Shown here one piece after another: positions 42,650-62,305 of a stretch of DNA of 64,000 nt (positions are counted from its first letter, which is position 1; every line of letters starts with the position of its first letter). Location of the stretch: contig NZ_JASOKT010000003.1 of NCBI RefSeq assembly GCF_030216305.1, forward strand, positions 62,001 to 126,000, in the 5' to 3' direction. Below the pieces are notes generated by a model that saw only the letters and a list, made by a program, of their open reading frames with translations, made no database searches and had not been told where the DNA came from. Position numbers and translations under genes: made by a program. The DNA comes from Actinotignum timonense (lineage in GTDB: Bacteria > Actinomycetota > Actinomycetes > Actinomycetales > Actinomycetaceae).

Positions 42650-43624
42650 TTACGCAGCGCTCCCACCTGCGGCAGCCTGCTGAGCTGCGAGGTTTTCAAG
42701 GTAGCGTTCTGCATCGAGAGCCGCCCGGCACCCGGTGCCAGCTGCGGAAATAGCCTGGCGGTAGTACCGATCCACGACATCCCCGCAGGCGAAAACTCCG
42801 GGAATCGAGGTTTCGGTGTGCGGGTGGTTCACGACGATATAGCCGCCGTCGTCCAATTTAAGCTGTCCCCCAAGAATTTCCGTACGCGGGAGGTGACCGA
42901 TGGCCACGAAAAGGCCGGTCACATCGAGGTTCGAATCTTCCCCGGTCACGTTGTTGTGGAGGGTGAGCGCGTTCATGGAACCGCCGTCTTCCCCGCGAAT
43001 ATCGGTGATTTCGCTGTTCCAGTGCATGACGATCTTGGGGTCGGCCAGGAGGCGATCCGCCATGATCTTCGAGGCGCGCAGCTCATCGCGCCGGTGGATC
43101 ACGTGTACCTTGGTCGCGAAGCGGGTGAGGAAGAGGGCGTCTGTGACGGCGCTATCCCCGCCGCCCACCACGGCGATTTCCTGATTCTTGAAGAAGAAGC
43201 CATCGCAGGTGGCGCAGTAGGAAACCCCGCGGGAGGCGAACATGGTCTCGCCATCCAGACCGAGCTTCTTGTAGGCCGACCCGAGAGCCAAGATGACCGT
43301 GCGGGCCCGGAATTCGGATTCATCGGTGCGCACGATCTTGACATCGCCGTTCAGGTCCATGGAGAGGGCGTCGTCGTACTCCATTTCGGCACCGAACTTT
43401 TCGGCCTGCTGCTGCATATTGGCCATGAGGTCGGGCCCGAAAATCCCATCTGGGAAGCCGGGGTAGTTTTCCACCTCGGTGGTGGTCATGAGTGCGCCAC
43501 CGGCATCGATGGCGCCGCCGATCACCAGCGGCTTGAGGCCCGCGCGTGCGGTGTACAGCGCGGCGGTCCAGCCTGCCGGCCCCGATCCGACGATGATGAC
43601 GTCACGAATATCGCTCTCGGTCAT
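42650..43624 (-). CDS. trxB: Thioredoxin reductase
   Basis: This 324-residue flavoprotein uses NADPH to reduce thioredoxin. It has the FAD site IIVGSGPAGWTAALYTARAG, the redox centre VSYCATCDGFFF, the NADPH site IAVVGGGDSAVTDALFL, and the late FAD motif GVFACGDVVDRYYRQ. ATG 43624 was chosen for its GGAG site; a longer open frame upstream lacks one. The thioredoxin-like gene downstream has lost its cysteines, so the real partner must be encoded elsewhere. Confidence 0.95.
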   Translation of the reverse strand: MTESDIRDVIIVGSGPAGWTAALYTARAGLKPLVIGGAIDAGGALMTTTEVENYPGFPDGIFGPDLMANMQQQAEKFGAEMEYDDALSMDLNGDVKIVRTDESEFRARTVILALGSAYKKLGLDGETMFASRGVSYCATCDGFFFKNQEIAVVGGGDSAVTDALFLTRFATKVHVIHRRDELRASKIMADRLLADPKIVMHWNSEITDIRGEDGGSMNALTLHNNVTGEDSNLDVTGLFVAIGHLPRTEILGGQLKLDDGGYIVVNHPHTETSIPGVFACGDVVDRYYRQAISAAGTGCRAALDAERYLENLAAQQAAAGGSAA

Positions 43625-43776
43625 ATTTCTCCTGTGTTCTTGTGAGTGAGCGTGCCGCGTTGCGCGAGCACACCGCTCCCCATCGGGCACATCATTGGAT
43701 ACAACGTCCCGGGGTGCATGGCTATTCCCAGCTGTCTGTCAACGCTGTCTGTCAACGCTGTCGATACAGCCCGTCT

Positions 43777-45092
43777 GTAAACACCGTTTATTTCACGGTG
43801 ATCTCAGAAATCTGCAATTTGAACTGCCCAGCTGCATTCTTCGGCAATTCAGTGAACCACAACACCACGTGATCACTGTTTACTGGTGTTGGTGCAGTAA
43901 GCGTTGTTTTCGCGCTCATCGGGCCTTCGGTCACCACGGTGCCACCGCTGGGTTGATCCGCGGTGGTATCACGCCACTGCACATTCCCGCCCTGGCCGCT
44001 CAGCTGCAAGGTCACTTCCTTGACGGTGGAAGGCTTCGCCAAGCGCAGCTCAATCCCGACACCGTCCTTGAGCAGGCCGAACTTCGGATTGCGCAGGTAT
44101 TCCCAACTGGCCCATTCCGTTGCCGGATTCTTGTCGATGGCCAGCGGGAGCGTCTTCGGATAATCCTCGTCTGCCTCGCTCTTCTGCGGGTTGAGAAGAT
44201 TCGCCGAAACGATCTGCGGAGTGGCGGAGCTGGGCGTGGGCGCTGCACTCGCTCCCGGCTGGGCACCCGGGCCTTCCGAACCCGGCGCATCGGCCGAGGC
44301 AGAAGGCGCAGCGGAAATCACCGGCGGGCGGGTGGACACGTCCGTGGGCCGGAAGAATGTGGTCACCGCGAAATACAAAGCCACTGCGACCAGGCCAATG
44401 GCGCCCGCAACGATGAGCTTGGAGGAATCGAAAATGCGCGATCCGAGGGCCCGCCCGTTTTCCTCATCGGCGATAATCGGCCGCGAAGGAGCGGGCGGCC
44501 GAGTGGCCGGCTTGCGATCCCCGCGGGTGCGGGCAGCGACTTTCGCCGGAGCGGAACTCGCGCGCGCAGCCGCCGAAACCGAGTGAATACGTGACGCTGC
44601 CTGAGGTGCTGCGGGCGCGGGAGCTGTGGGCACGGGAGTGGCGGCTGCGGGAACGGCCGATGCAGCAGCTCCGGCCGCGGCGGCGGACTTATTCGCTCGC
44701 TCAGATTGGCCGGCGTCTTCCTCATCGCCGACGTTCATAATAGAACGCCGCTGCGGGCTCGCCCCGCTGTGAACACTGTTTATCGCAACCGTGGGAGCGG
44801 AATCGCGCTCGCGTTCCGCTGCGGCGGCTTCGCGTTCTGCGCTTTCGTGCCGAGCGGCTTCGCGTTCAGCAGCGGCACGCGCGGCGGCCTCATGTTCCGC
44901 CGCCTCACGTTCGCATTCTTCCAGCTCACGTTCCGCTTCGCGTAGCGAGGGGAAATGCGGCTGGAACCGCGGAGTTGCGGCATCCTGAGCGACGACGCCG
45001 CCACCGGCAGCATGACCACTGTGGCTATCGATGTTGATCGCGGGAGTTTCTTCAGTCTTGGTTTCACCACGATCGGCGTAAACAGTGTTTAC
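43777..45092. repeat. Four scattered copies of a GTAAACA-N-TGTTTAC palindrome
   Basis: A perfect 15-bp palindrome GTAAACAGTGTTTAC lies at 45078-45092. Variants with two mismatches lie at 44769-44783 (GTGAACACTGTTTAT), 43869-43883 (GTGATCACTGTTTAC) and 43777-43791 (GTAAACACCGTTTAT). The last spans the stop codon of the pseudokinase gene. The three inside the gene are read in the same frame, giving VNTV, INSV and VNSD. Confidence 0.55.
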
Positions 45093-46433
45093 TTCCGTTT
45101 CCTCGATGGGGGAATCCGGCGCTGAAGATTGCTCGGCATGAAGCTCCGATCCGGCTGGGGAGCTGGCCTCGGAATCCCGCTCGGTTTCCTCCTCATCGCG
45201 GAATTCCTCCGGGGAGACCCACTGCGGGTGGAGCTCTACTTCCGGAGCTGCGGTAATACCTAATTCGGTATCAACGTCGCCTTCGAAATTCGCCCCGGAT
45301 ACGCCCTCAGGATCCAATTCTTGGGATCCAATAGCGGAGGAGGCCGATGCGGCTGAAGGAGCCGCGGGAGTCTCATCAGCTTCGGACGTTTCATCGGCTT
45401 CGACTGGCTTACCAGGATCATCGGATCTCTCGCCGGTTTTGGAAGCCTCGCCAGAGTCACCAGATTCGCCCGGCCCGCCGAAGTCCCCAGCTTCACCAGC
45501 CTCACTCAACTCCGCCGCCTCGCCGGATGCACTGGTGGCAGCTGCGGCGTCGTCGTGCTCAGAATCTTCGGCGCCGAAGGAAACGTGACTGGAACCCAAG
45601 GTGACGCGGCCAATCGCGCCCCCGCGCACGTGCCCGCCCAGCGGGTCGAAACCGAAACGGGAATCCCCGCCGCCGGGCAGCTGCGGCGCTACCAGCACCG
45701 GATCGGGGAATTCCCGCAGGTCAGGCCGGTTGAACGGCACGAGGCTGCGCAATACCTCCCCGGGGGAAAGCAAGCGCTCCGGGGAAAGCGTGCGCCGGAA
45801 AACCTCCCGAATATCATCGGGCAGCGAATCATCGCGCGCCAGCGCCTCGAGGGTGGTCTCATCCGCCTGGGCGCCCTCAAGCAGGGTCGCCAGGAACAGC
45901 ACCAGGTCCGCGGCCTCGGCGTTATTGAGGCTGGCCGGATCGTATTCATCCGTGCGCGCACCGGCCAGAGCTGCGTCAATACCGATGCCGTCCAGGTACA
46001 CATCCCCGGCGTCGCCCACCCGCACCCGCGAGGGCGTAATACGCAAATGCCGCATACCGCGCCCGGAAACCTGGGTGAGAATCGCGGCGAGCTCGCACAC
46101 CACAGCTTTGGCCTGCTCGGGCGCGAAACCCTCCCCGTGCACGTACCCGGTGAGCGAGGTACCCAACGGAATCTCGCTCACCACGAAATTTTCGCCGACG
46201 GAGAGCGTGCGCACGATATGCGCGTCGTCGAGCAACCCGGTGCGCCGCGCCGCGTCCAGCGCATCCGCGCGCGTGGGAATATCCCCGATGAGCAGCACCC
46301 GCACCGCGGTGCCGAGCGCGTCATCCACGGCGTACCACTGCTCGGTACCCGCAATATCGAGTTGCTCCTCGTACAAATTCTCCAGGCGGTAGCGACCGGC
46401 GAGAGTCATGCCCCTGGTTCCGATGGCGCTCAC
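43788..46433 (-). CDS. Pseudokinase-type membrane protein (MurJ C-terminal-module homologue without MurJ)
   Basis: This 881-residue protein has a degenerate protein-kinase fold at about 8-255: MTLAGRYRLENLYEEQ opens it, but the HRD/HxN region reads MRHLRITPSRVRVG and no DFG Asp is evident. A disordered Glu/Ala/Ser-rich stretch follows (about 290-660), then one transmembrane helix (about 673-694, IVAGAIGLVAVALYFAV) and an extracellular beta-sandwich (about 740-881) like discoidin/galactose-binding domains. The layout matches the part of mycobacterial MviN (Rv3910) that follows the 14-helix MurJ flippase, but here no MurJ helices exist. GTG start with GGAGG upstream. The DUF6049 gene is 36 bp away. 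Confidence 0.78.
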   Translation of the reverse strand: MSAIGTRGMTLAGRYRLENLYEEQLDIAGTEQWYAVDDALGTAVRVLLIGDIPTRADALDAARRTGLLDDAHIVRTLSVGENFVVSEIPLGTSLTGYVHGEGFAPEQAKAVVCELAAILTQVSGRGMRHLRITPSRVRVGDAGDVYLDGIGIDAALAGARTDEYDPASLNNAEAADLVLFLATLLEGAQADETTLEALARDDSLPDDIREVFRRTLSPERLLSPGEVLRSLVPFNRPDLREFPDPVLVAPQLPGGGDSRFGFDPLGGHVRGGAIGRVTLGSSHVSFGAEDSEHDDAAAATSASGEAAELSEAGEAGDFGGPGESGDSGEASKTGERSDDPGKPVEADETSEADETPAAPSAASASSAIGSQELDPEGVSGANFEGDVDTELGITAAPEVELHPQWVSPEEFRDEEETERDSEASSPAGSELHAEQSSAPDSPIEETEVNTVYADRGETKTEETPAINIDSHSGHAAGGGVVAQDAATPRFQPHFPSLREAERELEECEREAAEHEAAARAAAEREAARHESAEREAAAAERERDSAPTVAINSVHSGASPQRRSIMNVGDEEDAGQSERANKSAAAAGAAASAVPAAATPVPTAPAPAAPQAASRIHSVSAAARASSAPAKVAARTRGDRKPATRPPAPSRPIIADEENGRALGSRIFDSSKLIVAGAIGLVAVALYFAVTTFFRPTDVSTRPPVISAAPSASADAPGSEGPGAQPGASAAPTPSSATPQIVSANLLNPQKSEADEDYPKTLPLAIDKNPATEWASWEYLRNPKFGLLKDGVGIELRLAKPSTVKEVTLQLSGQGGNVQWRDTTADQPSGGTVVTEGPMSAKTTLTAPTPVNSDHVVLWFTELPKNAAGQFKLQISEITVK

Positions 46434-46469
46434 AGTTCCTCCTTGCCGTGCCTCGCGGCCACATTACTC

Positions 46470-49019
46470 CTATGGTATTTCGTGTTCCTCGCGCAGTTTA
46501 TCGACGGCGCGCGGCCCGGCTTCTTCCGCCGCGCTAGCCTCACGTAAATTGTGGAGATGTTTTTCAGGGTCGACGCCGCCCGAACGCCGCCCGCTACGCA
46601 GGCTGCGTGCGATCCCACCGAGCAAGAGCACCCCGAGGAGTGTGCCAATAATATACGTTCCCGTGGTTTCCCAGCCGGCGCGCACCCGCACATTAATATC
46701 TTGCACCGCGCCGATCGCGGTGCCCACCGGGTCGGTGACCGCGGCCGTCACCGTGACATTCCCCGAGCCGGATGCCTGCACCGGCACCGCCACTGTGACG
46801 GAGGTGGCCGGCGGGATCGTTGCCGCAACGGGATCGGAGGGCACAATGCGGAAATCTTCGGCGCGCAATTCCACTACCGCGCCCACCGGAACGGGCAGCG
46901 AATTATGCACGTGCACGGGCAAATCCGCGTTTTCCGAAATGATGTTAATCGTGGAGGAGGGCTGCACCGTGACGGCACCGGCCATCTCCTCGGCGAGCTG
47001 CGTGAGCTGCGCGGATAGCTCCTCACGCTGCGCGTGGTGGTCGCGGAGCGCCACCCCCGCCAGTTGCGCGGCGTGATGGGTGACCGGCCCGGTGATACTA
47101 GCGGGTGCCGGGGTAAGAGCAGCGGTGGTGGAAATTGTGGTGACATGCGCATCGCCCCGGGCGACCATTGCCGCGGAAATCTCCCCGGGAAGCACGCGTT
47201 CCTCGGGAAGCTGGGCACACCCGGCCGCGGGCGCGTCAAGAAGATCCCCGGCCGCGGTGGGTGCCAACCACGGCGCACTCGTGAGCGCCCCGAGCGCGGC
47301 CCCGATATCGCGATCCGGCAGCGCCCCGGCCCGGGCTAGCGCCCCGCTTTCCGGCCGATCCACCAGCACTACCTGGGCGCGCGGCGCGGCGGGCAGTTCC
47401 CGGTAGGTGGCGGCCGACAGCGCGAGAGCTGTTTGGCGGGCGTCGATAGCGGAGAGCCGGCTCCCGGCAGCTTCCGGCAAACCTTCCCCACCCCCGGAGG
47501 CCAGCACATTTGCCTCATCCGAACTGGGCAAATAGCCCTGCACCAGGGCGGAGAGCACGCCGTCCGCGCGCAGCGCCGCGGCTTCATCCGCATCGGCGGT
47601 TTCGTTTGCATCGCCCGCGGCATCGTTTGCGCCGGCCGCGCCGCTCGCGGCACCCGCCCCGGACTCCTCCGCATCACCGCGAGCCTCGCTCAGCGAACAC
47701 GTATCACTCCCGTCCGCGGCGAGCGGAATATTCACCCGCCCGCTCGGGCTGAGCCAGGAGGCGTGCGCCGCATCCACATCGGTGGTGATGAGCGCCGCGG
47801 CCCCCGCATCGCGCAGCGCCCGCGCGGTGGCCCGATCCACCCCCAGCGCCGTGACCGCAATATCGGAACGCGCCGCAAATCCGGAAGTCTGCGCCGCCTG
47901 CACCGCATCCTGCCGCGCCAGAGCGAGCTTATCCGCGCGCCCCGCATGGGTGAGCGCCGCGGCATCCACGTCCGCCCCCAAACCGAAGAACACGCTGGTC
48001 TCGGCCGCGGACGCAAAAGTTTGCAACGCGGCCCGCTCCGGATCACCCGCGATGAGCAGCGGATCAACGGCCGCGCTTACCCCCGGGTGCGCAAAATAGT
48101 TCAAAGTCTGCAAGCGATGGGGCAACTGCCCGGCCTCCGCCGCGGAACCCGAAGGCGAAGAGGGAGCCGAAGCCGTGGGCGTTTTATTCGGGGCCGACGG
48201 CGCAGCCGGGGAACTCGCCCCCTGCGAAACCGACGGCGCGGCTGGCGCGGCGCTCGCCGCCGGGTCGGCAGCGGACGTGGCGCTCGGCGTGGGCGTGCTT
48301 GCCGAAGCTGAAGCCGGAGCCGGCACCGCGGCCGGCGGCTGCGGGCTGGCCGAGGGCGCGGTGAGGCTGGTGTAGACCTGCTCCTCGAGGGCCGGGGCAC
48401 TGCTCACATCGCTCAGGGAGCGCGTGATCGGCACAATTGCGCTGATGGGGGCTGGCGCGGCGTCGTCGCCCGGAGCAGTGACAATAAAACTACGGTCCGT
48501 GGCAGTTTCCCCGTCCACCACGGCACTCACCTGGACCCCGCGCGGCCCCCACTCGGCGGGAATCCGCTCCCGCGGAATCGAAAAGGTGACGCGGGTGGAA
48601 GTGCCCGGCGCAATATCCGCATCCGGGGTGAGGGTGTCATACAGGGCCAGGCCGGCGGGTTCCGCGCGCATGAAGCTGAGCACCGCGCTGCGCGAGGACG
48701 GTACGTAGCGCTGGATATAGAGCGAGACCGAATTGAGATGGCGGGTTTCCGTGGTGGAATTCGTCACGGTGGCGGTGAGGGTGAGGGTAGCGTCCGCGCC
48801 GAGCACCGGGGCGCCCACGTCCACGATCTCAACGCTGGGTGCGGCGGCCGGGCGCGCGGGAAGAACCTGACCCGGAAGAGCGTGCACGGGCGAATGTTGC
48901 GCGGGCGAATGTTGCGCGGGAAGCGCCTGCGCGGCTAAACCTTGCGCACCCGCCAACCCAATAGCACCCAGCGGCACCCAGGCCGCCACGGCCCCGGCAA
49001 GCGCGCCCCGCCACATCAT
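46470..49019 (-). CDS. DUF6049-family secreted/membrane protein
   Basis: This 849-residue protein has a signal peptide-like N-terminus (AVAAWVPLGAIGLAGAQGLA), an AQHSPAQHSP repeat after it, a long extracellular part with beta-rich ends and a disordered Pro/Ala/Ser middle (about 225-310), and one C-terminal transmembrane helix in TYIIGTLLGVLLLGGIARSL with a short cytoplasmic tail. It is the counterpart of Rv3909, the neighbour of MviN in mycobacteria. Its ATG overlaps the Nudix stop codon, so translation is probably coupled. Function is unknown; cell-envelope work is likely by context. Confidence 0.82.
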   Translation of the reverse strand: MMWRGALAGAVAAWVPLGAIGLAGAQGLAAQALPAQHSPAQHSPVHALPGQVLPARPAAAPSVEIVDVGAPVLGADATLTLTATVTNSTTETRHLNSVSLYIQRYVPSSRSAVLSFMRAEPAGLALYDTLTPDADIAPGTSTRVTFSIPRERIPAEWGPRGVQVSAVVDGETATDRSFIVTAPGDDAAPAPISAIVPITRSLSDVSSAPALEEQVYTSLTAPSASPQPPAAVPAPASASASTPTPSATSAADPAASAAPAAPSVSQGASSPAAPSAPNKTPTASAPSSPSGSAAEAGQLPHRLQTLNYFAHPGVSAAVDPLLIAGDPERAALQTFASAAETSVFFGLGADVDAAALTHAGRADKLALARQDAVQAAQTSGFAARSDIAVTALGVDRATARALRDAGAAALITTDVDAAHASWLSPSGRVNIPLAADGSDTCSLSEARGDAEESGAGAASGAAGANDAAGDANETADADEAAALRADGVLSALVQGYLPSSDEANVLASGGGEGLPEAAGSRLSAIDARQTALALSAATYRELPAAPRAQVVLVDRPESGALARAGALPDRDIGAALGALTSAPWLAPTAAGDLLDAPAAGCAQLPEERVLPGEISAAMVARGDAHVTTISTTAALTPAPASITGPVTHHAAQLAGVALRDHHAQREELSAQLTQLAEEMAGAVTVQPSSTINIISENADLPVHVHNSLPVPVGAVVELRAEDFRIVPSDPVAATIPPATSVTVAVPVQASGSGNVTVTAAVTDPVGTAIGAVQDINVRVRAGWETTGTYIIGTLLGVLLLGGIARSLRSGRRSGGVDPEKHLHNLREASAAEEAGPRAVDKLREEHEIP

Positions 49020-49555
49020 TCCTCCCCCGCGAGAATCGCGCGGGCCGAGGCCACGATACGGCGTTCATTGGGATAGGCGAGGCGGGAGGCTACCCGATCC
49101 AGGCGCACCCACTCGGCCTTTTCCGCTTCGTGATCCGGGTCGTTATCAACAGTGATATGCCCGGACATCCCCTCCAATAAAAAGTGGTGCACAACTTTAT
49201 GGACGCGGTGGTTGGTGCCGGAGAACCAGTAATCAATAGTGGCCAAATGCATGAGCACCCGCCCGGTAATCCCGGTTTCCTCCGCGATTTCCCGCACGGC
49301 GGCTTCTTCGGGTGTTTCATTACCTTCCAGGTGCCCCTTGGGCAGGCACCACTCCAGCCGCCCGCCGCGGTTGCGCCGCGCGATCACCGCCACGTAGGCC
49401 TTCCCGCCGCGCACCCCGATCACAATTCCCCCGGCACTCGTTTCGTTCACCACCGGAAGAGAGTGGCGCCGCGCAGAAGCCTGGTGCACGGCAGCGGCGC
49501 GCCTCCAGGATCTACGGCCCCCGAACTTGGAGGGCAACGGTGCTGACTTCGACAT
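49016..49555 (-). CDS. Nudix hydrolase (MutT4-like)
   Basis: This 179-residue enzyme has a full Nudix box, GHLEGNETPEEAAVREIAEE followed by TGI, in a fold starting ETSAGGIVIGVRGGKAYVAV. WCLPKGHLEG resembles MutT1/MutT4-type proteins that hydrolyse nucleoside polyphosphates. A basic N-terminal stretch (GGRRSWRRAAAVHQASARRH) precedes the domain. ATG 49555 was chosen for its AGAGG; an upstream frame exists but would overlap the divergent CCA-adding enzyme region. It corresponds to Rv3908. Confidence 0.88.
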   Translation of the reverse strand: MSKSAPLPSKFGGRRSWRRAAAVHQASARRHSLPVVNETSAGGIVIGVRGGKAYVAVIARRNRGGRLEWCLPKGHLEGNETPEEAAVREIAEETGITGRVLMHLATIDYWFSGTNHRVHKVVHHFLLEGMSGHITVDNDPDHEAEKAEWVRLDRVASRLAYPNERRIVASARAILAGEE

Positions 49556-49591
49556 ACCTCTAACACTACAACTAACGGTCAGGGCCCCCAG

Positions 49592-51085
49592 ATGTGGCAA
49601 CCTTTAAGGGTGACCACTTCTCAACAGACTCCGAAGACTCCAACAACGGACGATATGCCTCCGGGCCAGCGCCGCGCCCTCCTGCTCCTGGCAGGCCAGC
49701 GCGCCCTGGCGAATATCCCGGACGACATCTTGCAACTAGCTTCTATCTTCTCAGATCACGGCGAAGAATTGGCCCTCGTGGGCGGCCCGGTTCGCGATGC
49801 CTTCCTCGGCGCCCCCATTCACGACTTCGATTTGACCACCTCCGCCCGCCCGGAAACCACCGAAAAACTCCTCGCCCAGTGGGGAACCACCTGGGATATC
49901 GGGCGGGAATTTGGCACGGTGGGGGCGCGGCGCGGTGACGTCGTCGTCGAAGTAACAACGTACCGCTCCGATACGTACACCATCGGTTCGCGCAAACCCG
50001 ATGTGGATTTTGGTGACAACCTCGAAGGTGACCTCACCCGGCGCGATTTCACCGTGAACGCGATGGCGGTGCGCCTGCCCAGCCTCGAACTGGTGGACCC
50101 GTGCGGCGGGGTGGATGACCTCCTCGCCGGGCAGCTGCGCACGCCGGTGACCGCGGCGCAGTCCTTCGATGACGATCCGCTGCGGATCATGCGGGCCGCG
50201 CGTTTCGCCGCGCAGCTGCGTTTCGATGTGGCTCCCGATGTGCTGCGGGCCATGGCCGATTACGCCGAGCGCTTGGAGATCGTCTCCCAGGAACGCATCC
50301 GCGCCGAACTGGAACGCCTCATGACCGCGCCCGCCCCGCGCCGCGGCATTGAGCTGCTGGTGTACACCGGGGTGGCCGAGCGCGTGCTGCCGGAAATCGC
50401 GGCGCTCACCGATACCGTGGACGCCCAGCACCGCCACAAGGACGTGTACCAGCACACCCTCCAGGTGGTTGATAACGCCATCGCGCTGGAGGATGAGGAG
50501 GTGCCCGGCCCGGATCTTATTTTGCGCCTGGCCGCGCTTTTCCACGATATCGGCAAGCCGGCCACCCGCCGTTTCGAAAGCGACGGTTCGGTCACGTTCC
50601 GCCACCACGATGTGGTGGGCGCGAAAATGACGCGCGCGCGCATGCGTGAACTGCGTTTTGATAAAACGACGACGAAAAGCGTGGCGCGGCTGGTCGAGCT
50701 GCACCTGCGGGCTTTCGGATTTGGCGAACACGACTGGACCGATAGCGCGGTACGGCGGTTCGTGCGCGATGCCGGGGAGCTCCTCCCGCGCCTGCTGCGC
50801 CTCATCCGCGCCGATATCACCTCCCAGAACCGGCGGCGGGTGGCGCGCCTGCACGCCGCGAATGACGAACTGGAACGCCGCATTATCGAGCTGCGCGAAC
50901 GCGAGGAACTCGAGGCGGTGCGCCCCGATATTGACGGCACCCGCATTATGGAGCTGCTCGGCCTTGAGCCTGGCCCGCAGGTGGGCAAAGCCCGCCAGTA
51001 CCTGCTCTCCCTGCGCCTGGACGAAGGCCCGCTGGGTGTGGAGGAAGCCGAAAAGCGCCTGCTGGAATGGTGGGACGCCCAGTGA
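49592..51085 (+). CDS. CCA tRNA nucleotidyltransferase
   Basis: This 497-residue enzyme adds or repairs the CCA end of tRNAs, which the tRNA genes here do not encode. The head has ELALVGGPVRDAFLG and the catalytic DFDLTTSARPE, then RRDFTVNAMAVRL and DPLRIMRAARFAAQLRF. An HD domain follows with LAALFHDIGKPATRRF, as usual in actinobacteria. The ATG at 49592 has no good ribosome site; a GTG at 49610 and an ATG at 49655 are alternatives. It is divergent from the Nudix gene. Confidence 0.93.
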   Translation: MWQPLRVTTSQQTPKTPTTDDMPPGQRRALLLLAGQRALANIPDDILQLASIFSDHGEELALVGGPVRDAFLGAPIHDFDLTTSARPETTEKLLAQWGTTWDIGREFGTVGARRGDVVVEVTTYRSDTYTIGSRKPDVDFGDNLEGDLTRRDFTVNAMAVRLPSLELVDPCGGVDDLLAGQLRTPVTAAQSFDDDPLRIMRAARFAAQLRFDVAPDVLRAMADYAERLEIVSQERIRAELERLMTAPAPRRGIELLVYTGVAERVLPEIAALTDTVDAQHRHKDVYQHTLQVVDNAIALEDEEVPGPDLILRLAALFHDIGKPATRRFESDGSVTFRHHDVVGAKMTRARMRELRFDKTTTKSVARLVELHLRAFGFGEHDWTDSAVRRFVRDAGELLPRLLRLIRADITSQNRRRVARLHAANDELERRIIELREREELEAVRPDIDGTRIMELLGLEPGPQVGKARQYLLSLRLDEGPLGVEEAEKRLLEWWDAQ

Positions 51086-60520: not shown

Positions 60521-61891
60521 CTAGCTCCCCAGCTGCACCCACTTTTCCCCGCGTACCCGCAGGTACGTGGGCAGCGCGCGGGCGCTCATACACACCCCGG
60601 CATAGCCGATCCACAGCCAGATGAATCCCGTCTGCCCGGACGTCCATTCCAGCAGCCCGAGCACCATGGGCCCGTACAGGGCGAGGGGGATAAACATCAT
60701 CCACGCGAGGGTTTTAAGATCGCCCGCGCCAATGAGCACGCCGTCGAGAATAAATGCCACCGAGGCGATGGGGAAAAATACCGCAATGACGAGGAGGCCC
60801 CAGAAAGCCAGCCAGCGCACGTCCCCCGCGGTGCTCATGATCCGCACGATCAGCGGTGAGGTGAGAACAGTAGCCGCGCCCAGCACCGCGCCGACGCTCA
60901 TGCCGCGGCTCAGGCAGCGCCCGAGCACTGTTCGCAGGCGCGATTCGTCGCCGGCCCCGGAAGCTTGGCCCACGAGGATTTGCGCGGCCATGGCGAGGGC
61001 GTCCAGCCCGTAGGAGGCGAAATTCCAGATGGTCATGGTGATTTGGTTCGCGGCCAGCGCTTCAGTGCCGAGTTGGGTCGCCCCGGTTATTTGCAGCAGG
61101 ATCAGCACGCGCAGCACCGCGGAACGCACGATGAGGGGAACGGAATCGTGGAGGGCGCGTAGCACCCCCACTCCACGCGGAGCGAGCGGCGCGTGGTGCT
61201 CGCGCGCATGATGTACGACGACGCCGGTAAGGACCACACCCATGACCGTTTGCGCCGCCGCCGTACCTATTCCGGCTCCCGCCAGGCCCAGCCCGGCCGG
61301 GTAGATGAAAACGAAGTTGAGGGGGATATTGACGAGTGCCCCGAGCACCGAAACTTTGAAGGGTGTGGTGGTGTTCCCGAGCCCGCGCAGGGTTCCGGTG
61401 GCGGCCAGGACGACGAGCATGCCGGGCAGTCCCGCGGCGGAAAAACGCAGGTAGCGTGCACCTTCGGTGATAACGACTCCCTCCGCGCCGAAAAGCGCGA
61501 GGATGTGGGGTGCCCAGATAGCCAAGATCGCACCGAGTAGCAAGCCCAGCGTTCCGGCCAACCACAGGCCGTCCATGCCCTGGGAGAGGGCGGCTTTCAT
61601 GCGCCCGGCTCCCACGTAGCGGGCGGTGGCGGAGGTGGTGGCGTAGGCGAGGAAAATGCACAGCCCCACGAGGGTGGTGATGATGGTGGAAGCGAGGGCG
61701 AGGCCGGCGAGCGGCCCCGTGCCTAGGTGGCCCACCATCACGGTATCCGTGGCGACAAGGAGAGGCTCGGCCAGCAGGGAGCCGAGGGAGGGCAGGGCCA
61801 GGCGCGCGATCTCACGGTCAATGGCGTGCTTGGTAGTGGGGGTGTTGCGGTCTCCAGCGGGGCCGTCATGATGCTTCTCGGGTGTCGTCAC
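60521..61891 (-). CDS. MATE family efflux transporter, DinF-like
   Basis: This 456-residue protein has 12 helices in two MATE repeats. Repeat one opens with IDREIARLALPSLGSLLAEP and LLVATDTVMVGHLGTGPLAG; the second has AANQITMTIWNFASYGLDAL and AMAAQILVGQASGAGDES. It likely exports cationic or oxidative-stress compounds by sodium or proton antiport. The GTG at 61891 was chosen because upstream translation of the open frame is non-hydrophobic and runs into the DnaA-box region; no strong ribosome site is seen. No LexA box was found upstream despite the DinF likeness. Confidence 0.9.
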   Translation of the reverse strand: MTTPEKHHDGPAGDRNTPTTKHAIDREIARLALPSLGSLLAEPLLVATDTVMVGHLGTGPLAGLALASTIITTLVGLCIFLAYATTSATARYVGAGRMKAALSQGMDGLWLAGTLGLLLGAILAIWAPHILALFGAEGVVITEGARYLRFSAAGLPGMLVVLAATGTLRGLGNTTTPFKVSVLGALVNIPLNFVFIYPAGLGLAGAGIGTAAAQTVMGVVLTGVVVHHAREHHAPLAPRGVGVLRALHDSVPLIVRSAVLRVLILLQITGATQLGTEALAANQITMTIWNFASYGLDALAMAAQILVGQASGAGDESRLRTVLGRCLSRGMSVGAVLGAATVLTSPLIVRIMSTAGDVRWLAFWGLLVIAVFFPIASVAFILDGVLIGAGDLKTLAWMMFIPLALYGPMVLGLLEWTSGQTGFIWLWIGYAGVCMSARALPTYLRVRGEKWVQLGS

Positions 61892-62063
61892 GTCCGCTAG
61901 CTTAGCTGAGCCCGGGTGAGGTCGCCGGGCGCGGCGGTGCCAGGCAATGACGTCCGGCCCCGGCGGCCCGTAGCGGCCCCTCAACCCACGGCCACAACTA
62001 CTTGAGGAAAGCCTCAACGTGAGTGACGTCACGTAGTTAAGATGTGGAGAACTTTCCCGCAGA

Positions 62064-62199
62064 ATATCCACAGTTGTGGACAAACTTGGGGACGGGATGG
62101 CGGGGATTTCCCCCACTCCATCCACAGCTGTGGATGAATCTGGGCATAAATGGTAAACAATCCCCAAGCTATCCACAGCTTGTCCACCGGTTATGCACG
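62064..62199. promoter_or_regulatory. DnaA-box cluster upstream of dnaB
   Basis: Seven DnaA-box-like 9-mers lie in 136 bp: ATATCCACA 62064, TGTGGACAA 62075, CCATCCACA 62118, TGTGGATGA 62129, CTATCCACA 62169, TTGTCCACC 62180 and TTATGCACG 62191. The first four form two inverted pairs sharing a CAG/CTG centre. The rest of the 414-bp MATE-dnaB gap holds nothing recognisable. Confidence 0.65.
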
Positions 62200-62305
62200 G
62201 ATCCACCGGCGTGTTTACACATCCGCACAGGAGAATTAACTTGAAATTCACCTCGTAAACGCGTTACGAAAGCCAGTGGAGATCCATCGCCGAGAAAGGG
62301 AAACT

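Follow-up and report, generated by a model that had tools for sequence, protein, structure and literature searches.

A stand-alone MviN-type pseudokinase gene at the DUF6049 locus of Actinotignum timonense

What becomes of a regulatory domain when the enzyme to which it is fused in other bacteria is no longer encoded beside it? This question is raised by a 64,000-nucleotide stretch of Actinotignum timonense DNA (hereafter the window; assembly GCF_030216305.1, contig NZ_JASOKT010000003.1, positions 62,001 to 126,000), in which a protein made of a pseudokinase, a single membrane helix and an outer domain is encoded next to a DUF6049 gene, where most relatives outside its group carry murJ, the gene of the lipid II flippase MurJ. 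The initial annotation had described these three parts, a 36-bp distance from DUF6049 and the lack of a MurJ in the window. We confirmed this description; none of the window's 347 open reading frames (ORFs) of ≥60 residues matched the MurJ profile or a second MurJ paralogue used as query. We consider it probable that the gene derives from a MurJ-pseudokinase-transmembrane-CBM32 fusion, of which it is the C-terminal half, left behind after a duplication of murJ and acting as a scaffold in trans.

The left-behind protein and the site of murJ

The N-terminal domain of the window protein has a predicted protein kinase fold, as the initial annotation had proposed, according to both the model and the structure comparison. 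A profile search of the PDB matched it at E about 3e-9 (3.2e-9) to the pseudokinase of Rv3910, the MviN protein of M. tuberculosis, which consists of MurJ with a C-terminal pseudokinase of the ActPs3 family (PDB 3OTV, 3OUK, 3UQC, 3OUN) and an outer domain. The beta-3 lysine and the HRD aspartate are missing from all 18 aligned stand-alone proteins, and the DFG position holds an aspartate in 17 of them. Each of the 18 has exactly one hydrophobic membrane segment, so these proteins are not flippases, and the window protein carries no MurJ in its polypeptide that would make it a MurJ-pseudokinase fusion. Its outer domain has a CBM32 / F5-8 type C (discoidin-like) fold that escapes Pfam: the window protein was assigned to no family in Pfam or NCBIfam scans, and PF00754 matched one of the 18 aligned proteins (E ≤0.01). 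The gene belongs to the MviN-type pseudokinases as a new variant of the module. Stand-alone homologues of 496-568 residues (P0012-P0025) were recovered by a protein search, the large search giving 26 matches among the best 7999 candidates sharing most words; P0012 and P0013 aligned poorly and were removed for the second fold prediction.

We then compared gene order across 59 genomes of the order, 54 of them outside the Actinomycetaceae. In all 48 of these 54 that carry DUF6049, murJ lies ≤1.1 kb from it (same strand in 44, convergent in 4), which makes adjacency the ancestral arrangement and separation the derived one, and not the reverse, a possibility that the initial annotation had raised against its own interpretation. 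The four convergent cases all fall in one family (f12; G072, G087, G101, G115), where murJ still adjoins DUF6049 but is inverted. Among 61 Actinomycetaceae genomes, MurJ was found in all and DUF6049 in 60; the two genes are ≤0.9 kb apart in 33 and separated in 27, G035 being the genome without DUF6049. We assigned 24 of the 27 to the window's group, 19 by their place in the tree and five by genus (G005, G030, G040, G054, G058); G029 and the pair G020 and G049 are other cases. The locus does lack murJ as first noticed, while the idea that this is peculiar to one genome does not hold, the separated state being common to 24 of the 61. In G029, the second-type murJ appears as three short matches in frames of 379, 245 and 237 residues (L088, G029:C1:773500-777000) and may be broken.

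The site of murJ can be read from a second A. timonense genome, G001, whose DNA aligns with window positions 29890-64000 in nine blocks, eight at 94.8-98.1% identity and one at 89.7%. Its MurJ gene lies away from the DUF6049 locus, at C1:1968386 (PF03023, 225.8 bits); the protein scores well above the Pfam cut-off and, at 235.3, just below the TIGR01695 cut-off of 235.55. It stands between a FemAB gene (match to FemA 1lrz, E 1.4e-31) and an ATP-grasp ligase gene, and two congeners, G018 and G047, have this arrangement too. Two features of the G001 region were seen in passing: an assembly gap with a repeated 5' piece of murJ (C1:1968402-1971551), which looks like an assembly artefact, and nearby genes resembling CRISPR-Cas components (Cas1-like and Cas3-like, judged by eye; L009 3-4104).

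The module left at the old locus is well kept. All 23 group genomes whose contig continues past the locus have both the kinase and the outer domain; in the 24th, G007, the contig stops there. Of the 57 loci searched in total, 54 have a recognized outer domain and 41 a recognized kinase, making the outer domain the more constant part; two of the 16 loci without a recognized kinase are contig ends (G007 and G036). The kinase is truly gone from G006, where murJ is in place and the next gene (L033 7916-8572) encodes only 218 residues, a membrane helix and the outer domain. Within the genus, the ratio of nonsynonymous to synonymous substitution rates (dN/dS) for residues 1-245 is 0 against G018, 0.014 against G047 and 0.012 against A. 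schaalii, which indicates strong selection on the stand-alone pseudokinase at the sequence level. The same ratio is 0.26-0.30 for the linker between the window protein and its congeners, and 0.046 for the relocated murJ between G018 and G047.

Table 1. Features of the pseudokinase locus, in window coordinates
Feature	Position	Strand	Basis
Stand-alone pseudokinase / one-helix / outer-domain protein, 881 residues	43788..46433	-	PDB profile search and model
Pseudokinase domain, residues 1-250	45684..46433	-	alignment and model
Linker, residues 253-669, mostly disordered, one long helix at 497-544	44427..45677	-	model
Linker motif DxELGI...PxW, residues 388-405	45219..45272	-	alignment
Single membrane helix, residues 670-693	44355..44426	-	hydrophobic-segment prediction and model
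Outer CBM32/discoidin-like domain, residues 735-881	43791..44231	-	fold
36-bp gap between DUF6049 and pseudokinase genes; place of murJ in most relatives outside the group	46434..46469	.	ORF coordinates
DUF6049 gene (PF19516)	46470..49019	-	family search
trxB, thioredoxin reductase	42650..43690	-	family search
Nudix gene	49016..49600	-	family search
pcnA-like poly(A) polymerase / tRNA nucleotidyltransferase family gene	49592..51085	+	family search

Elsewhere in the window, a MATE-family transporter (60521-62251, minus strand) scores 27.1 against the MurJ cut-off of 27.4. It is easy to miscall as MurJ; we rejected it as the missing flippase.

Proposed action in trans and the place of DUF6049

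According to PMC12599244 and PMC6180346, PknB phosphorylates the Mycobacterium pseudokinase, which recruits FhaA and holds peptidoglycan synthesis in check. By analogy, the stand-alone protein would work in the same way but in trans. A murJ copy would have become established elsewhere in part of the Actinomycetaceae, mostly beside ATP-grasp and usually FemAB genes; the MurJ half would then have been removed from the old fused gene, so that the pseudokinase half remained as a single-pass membrane protein encoded behind DUF6049. This protein would be a non-catalytic scaffold: its cytoplasmic part, once phosphorylated by a PknB-type kinase, could recruit FhaA, and its outer domain could sense wall sugars, so that peptidoglycan synthesis would be restrained or placed. 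All 61 family genomes have FhaA_N, and the FhaA of G001 consists of FhaA_N and FHA. The linker holds one short conserved motif of the type DxELGI...PxW within otherwise disordered, fast-changing sequence; this pattern, picked post hoc, occurs in 10 of the 18 aligned proteins against 0.2 expected from shuffles, and may be a docking site.

Several observations weigh against this account. For the kinase relationship, active kinases outscore Rv3910 in the profile search (4.6e-13 vs 3.2e-9), the window protein alone gave no significant kinase match in the PDB (best kinase E 0.22), and Rv3910 is not among the 50 VIA-align matches listed for the full model. For the action through FhaA, the linker motif scan did not demonstrate an FhaA docking site or phosphosite in the stand-alone proteins. 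A T-x-[VI]-[FI] motif, also picked post hoc, occurs in 7 of the 18 and is missing from the window protein, so we kept this candidate phospho-threonine motif as a hint only; its count of 0/19 in fused proteins is an unfair comparison, as only a 34-residue stretch was scanned for many of them. Outside the group, the kinase part is unrecognized at 14 of the 57 loci, contig ends apart, and is thus not indispensable everywhere, and dN/dS for residues 1-245 rises to 0.26 and 0.23 against the distant G037 and G002, where dS is saturated. Finally, murJ is not near an ATP-grasp gene in 8 of the 24 group genomes, and the site of murJ in the window's own strain is deduced from the sequences of relatives.

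DUF6049 is the second candidate partner of the pseudokinase, since the two genes stayed together after murJ left: in the 18 pairs measured they share a strand and are separated by ≤140 bp, with an overlap in one pair. A less likely reading starts from this pair: DUF6049 and the pseudokinase-CBM32 protein would form a two-part, MurJ-independent envelope sensor, to which MurJ was fused only secondarily in mycobacteria and Actinomyces-like bacteria, with the freed sensor of the Actinotignum group controlling wall synthesis in trans through FhaA and MurJ tied to cross-bridge ligases. It also seems rather unlikely that the freed pseudokinase no longer serves MurJ and has DUF6049 as its real partner in such an envelope sensor. 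The conserved pairing argues for this partnership but may by itself be inertia; G035 retains a MurJ-kinase fusion with no detectable DUF6049, and the fused domain in Mycobacterium acts on wall synthesis via FhaA, as stated in a passage of PMC12599244.

Gene trees and the relocation of murJ

Two trees were built from 48 of the 61 family genomes, G005, G009, G015, G023, G030, G034, G038, G040, G043, G045, G054, G058 and G059 being left out. The MurJ tree, built from 48 first-type and 12 second-type murJ, places the 19 separated genes in one clade (100/99) nested within the adjacent ones, with the fused G051 as sister. The locus tree (Nudix, trxB and DUF6049 pieces) makes G051 and the separated G022, which belong to one genus, sisters (100/100) and rejects holding the 19 together (p 6.4e-5). 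A tree of pseudokinase pieces (27 rows) likewise joins G022 to G051 (100/100), a pairing that the MurJ data reject (approximately unbiased test, p 0.0068). We therefore abandoned a single relocation in a species clade of 19, which the MurJ tree supports and the locus tree rejects.

The genus of G022 and G051 is the nearest one that shows the old state, murJ still adjoining DUF6049 in five of its six genomes. G022 branches off first within it, as placed by a subset analysis of 24 genomes, 23 of them in its locus tree (G036 was dropped for having too few genes). Three of the five, G117-G119, encode MurJ, kinase and outer domain within a single open frame of 1101-1126 residues. In the other two, G051 (L015) and G116 (L112), this frame is broken after or within the kinase part, perhaps through sequencing error or decay; the FemAB gene of G051 (L099) is likewise split by a frame change.

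The conflicting trees fit a duplication after which the fused gene shed its MurJ half on two or more occasions. On the simplest reading, we infer that murJ was duplicated in a common ancestor, that the MurJ half was lost in G022 and separately in the rest of the group, and that the duplicate was lost in the other five genomes of the G022 genus. The discordance of G022, grouping with the fused G051 by locus genes and pseudokinase yet with the relocated genes by murJ, could also mean that there was no ancestral duplication and that a relocated murJ, passed horizontally into or out of the G022 lineage, took the place of the fused copy. We hold this unlikely: duplication with later losses predicts the same trees, and the murJ of G022 lies 2.2 kb from that genome's own ATP-grasp gene, as murJ lies near its own in 15 others. 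Whether by duplication or by transfer, the pseudokinase half remained on its own on two or more occasions.

An ATP-grasp match lies ≤5 kb from murJ in 16 of the 24 group genomes and in 0 of the 37 other family genomes, one of which (G016) has no ATP-grasp match at all; for G040, G054 and G058 the distance was judged from coordinates only. FemAB is also near murJ in 15 of those 16, G022 being the exception. G051 has the ATP-grasp gene and FemAB (in two frames) together without murJ, so the ligase pair may be older than the arrival of murJ. The two ligases probably build the peptidoglycan cross-bridge: a passage of PMC5720513 gives the A. schaalii peptidoglycan as A5alpha, L-Lys-L-Lys-D-Glu, and a lysine-adding FemAB with an ATP-grasp D-Glu ligase would suit such a wall.

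Two further explanations fall away. Besides a move of murJ, now borne out by the MurJ of G001, the initial annotation had offered another lipid II flippase; that an Amj or second MurJ-family paralogue replaced a lost MurJ is highly improbable, as its sole support is the second MurJ-family gene of G001 (C1:1654891, 144.6 bits), whereas first-type MurJ is present in G001 and the whole group, and Amj was found in 0 of the 8 genomes searched. That the gene is a decaying relic, as its lack of the enzyme-bearing half might suggest, is practically untenable given a kinase-part dN/dS of about 0.01 within Actinotignum and the retention of both domains in every testable group genome.

Relation to known systems and meaning

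The window protein shares with Rv3910, as described in PMC12599244 and PMC6656915, a membrane helix, a kinase fold devoid of catalytic residues and a carbohydrate-binding-like outer domain; it differs in lacking the MurJ half, encoded at another locus, and in its long linker of about 400 residues. A DUF6049 neighbor is a further shared feature. Kinase-like genes separate from MurJ are already known in other actinobacteria; what is unusual here is that murJ is no longer adjacent. We take Rv3909 to be the DUF6049 protein. Rv3909 and MviN were both MmpL3 partners in a two-hybrid screen in Mycobacterium, according to a passage of PMC6656915. According to the S6 Fig legend of PMC10166564, a short mviN is followed immediately in other actinobacteria by a gene labeled "protein kinase family". 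Like ours, that gene is unfused to MurJ; unlike ours, it has mviN beside it. The two are likened here by description. In the portions of the open-access literature searched, we found no description of a pseudokinase locus without murJ.

Schaalia odontolytica presumably belongs to the same family as the window organism. In its strain XH001, PMC12369343 reports that the first half of APY09_02725 is MurJ-like and free of transposon insertions and that the remainder takes insertions. Unlike in the window, both halves lie in one gene; the second, which the paper did not identify, would be the present pseudokinase module. Fused MurJ-kinase-outer domain proteins occur in several Actinomycetaceae, which we take to lack arabinogalactan. 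The statement in a passage of PMC10166564 that the extended MviN pseudokinase occurs only in organisms with arabinogalactan therefore looks too narrow.

The role of the MviN pseudokinase is unsettled; it is dispensable in mycobacteria and apparently essential in Corynebacterium diphtheriae, as summarized in a passage of PMC10166564. A group that no longer has murJ at this locus but retains an intact pseudokinase, held under very strong constraint, amounts to a natural experiment. The murJ gene moved and the regulator half stayed, and we propose that the latter functions in trans. Since the pseudokinase remained intact and constrained after murJ left, its work here needs no covalent link to MurJ, which suggests that the regulator can work untethered. 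Altogether, this provides a version of the regulator that is open to deletion or tagging without touching an essential gene and indicates FhaA and DUF6049 as partners, and finding MurJ next to ligases that probably make the cross-bridge may point to a connection between the building of the lipid II bridge and its flipping.

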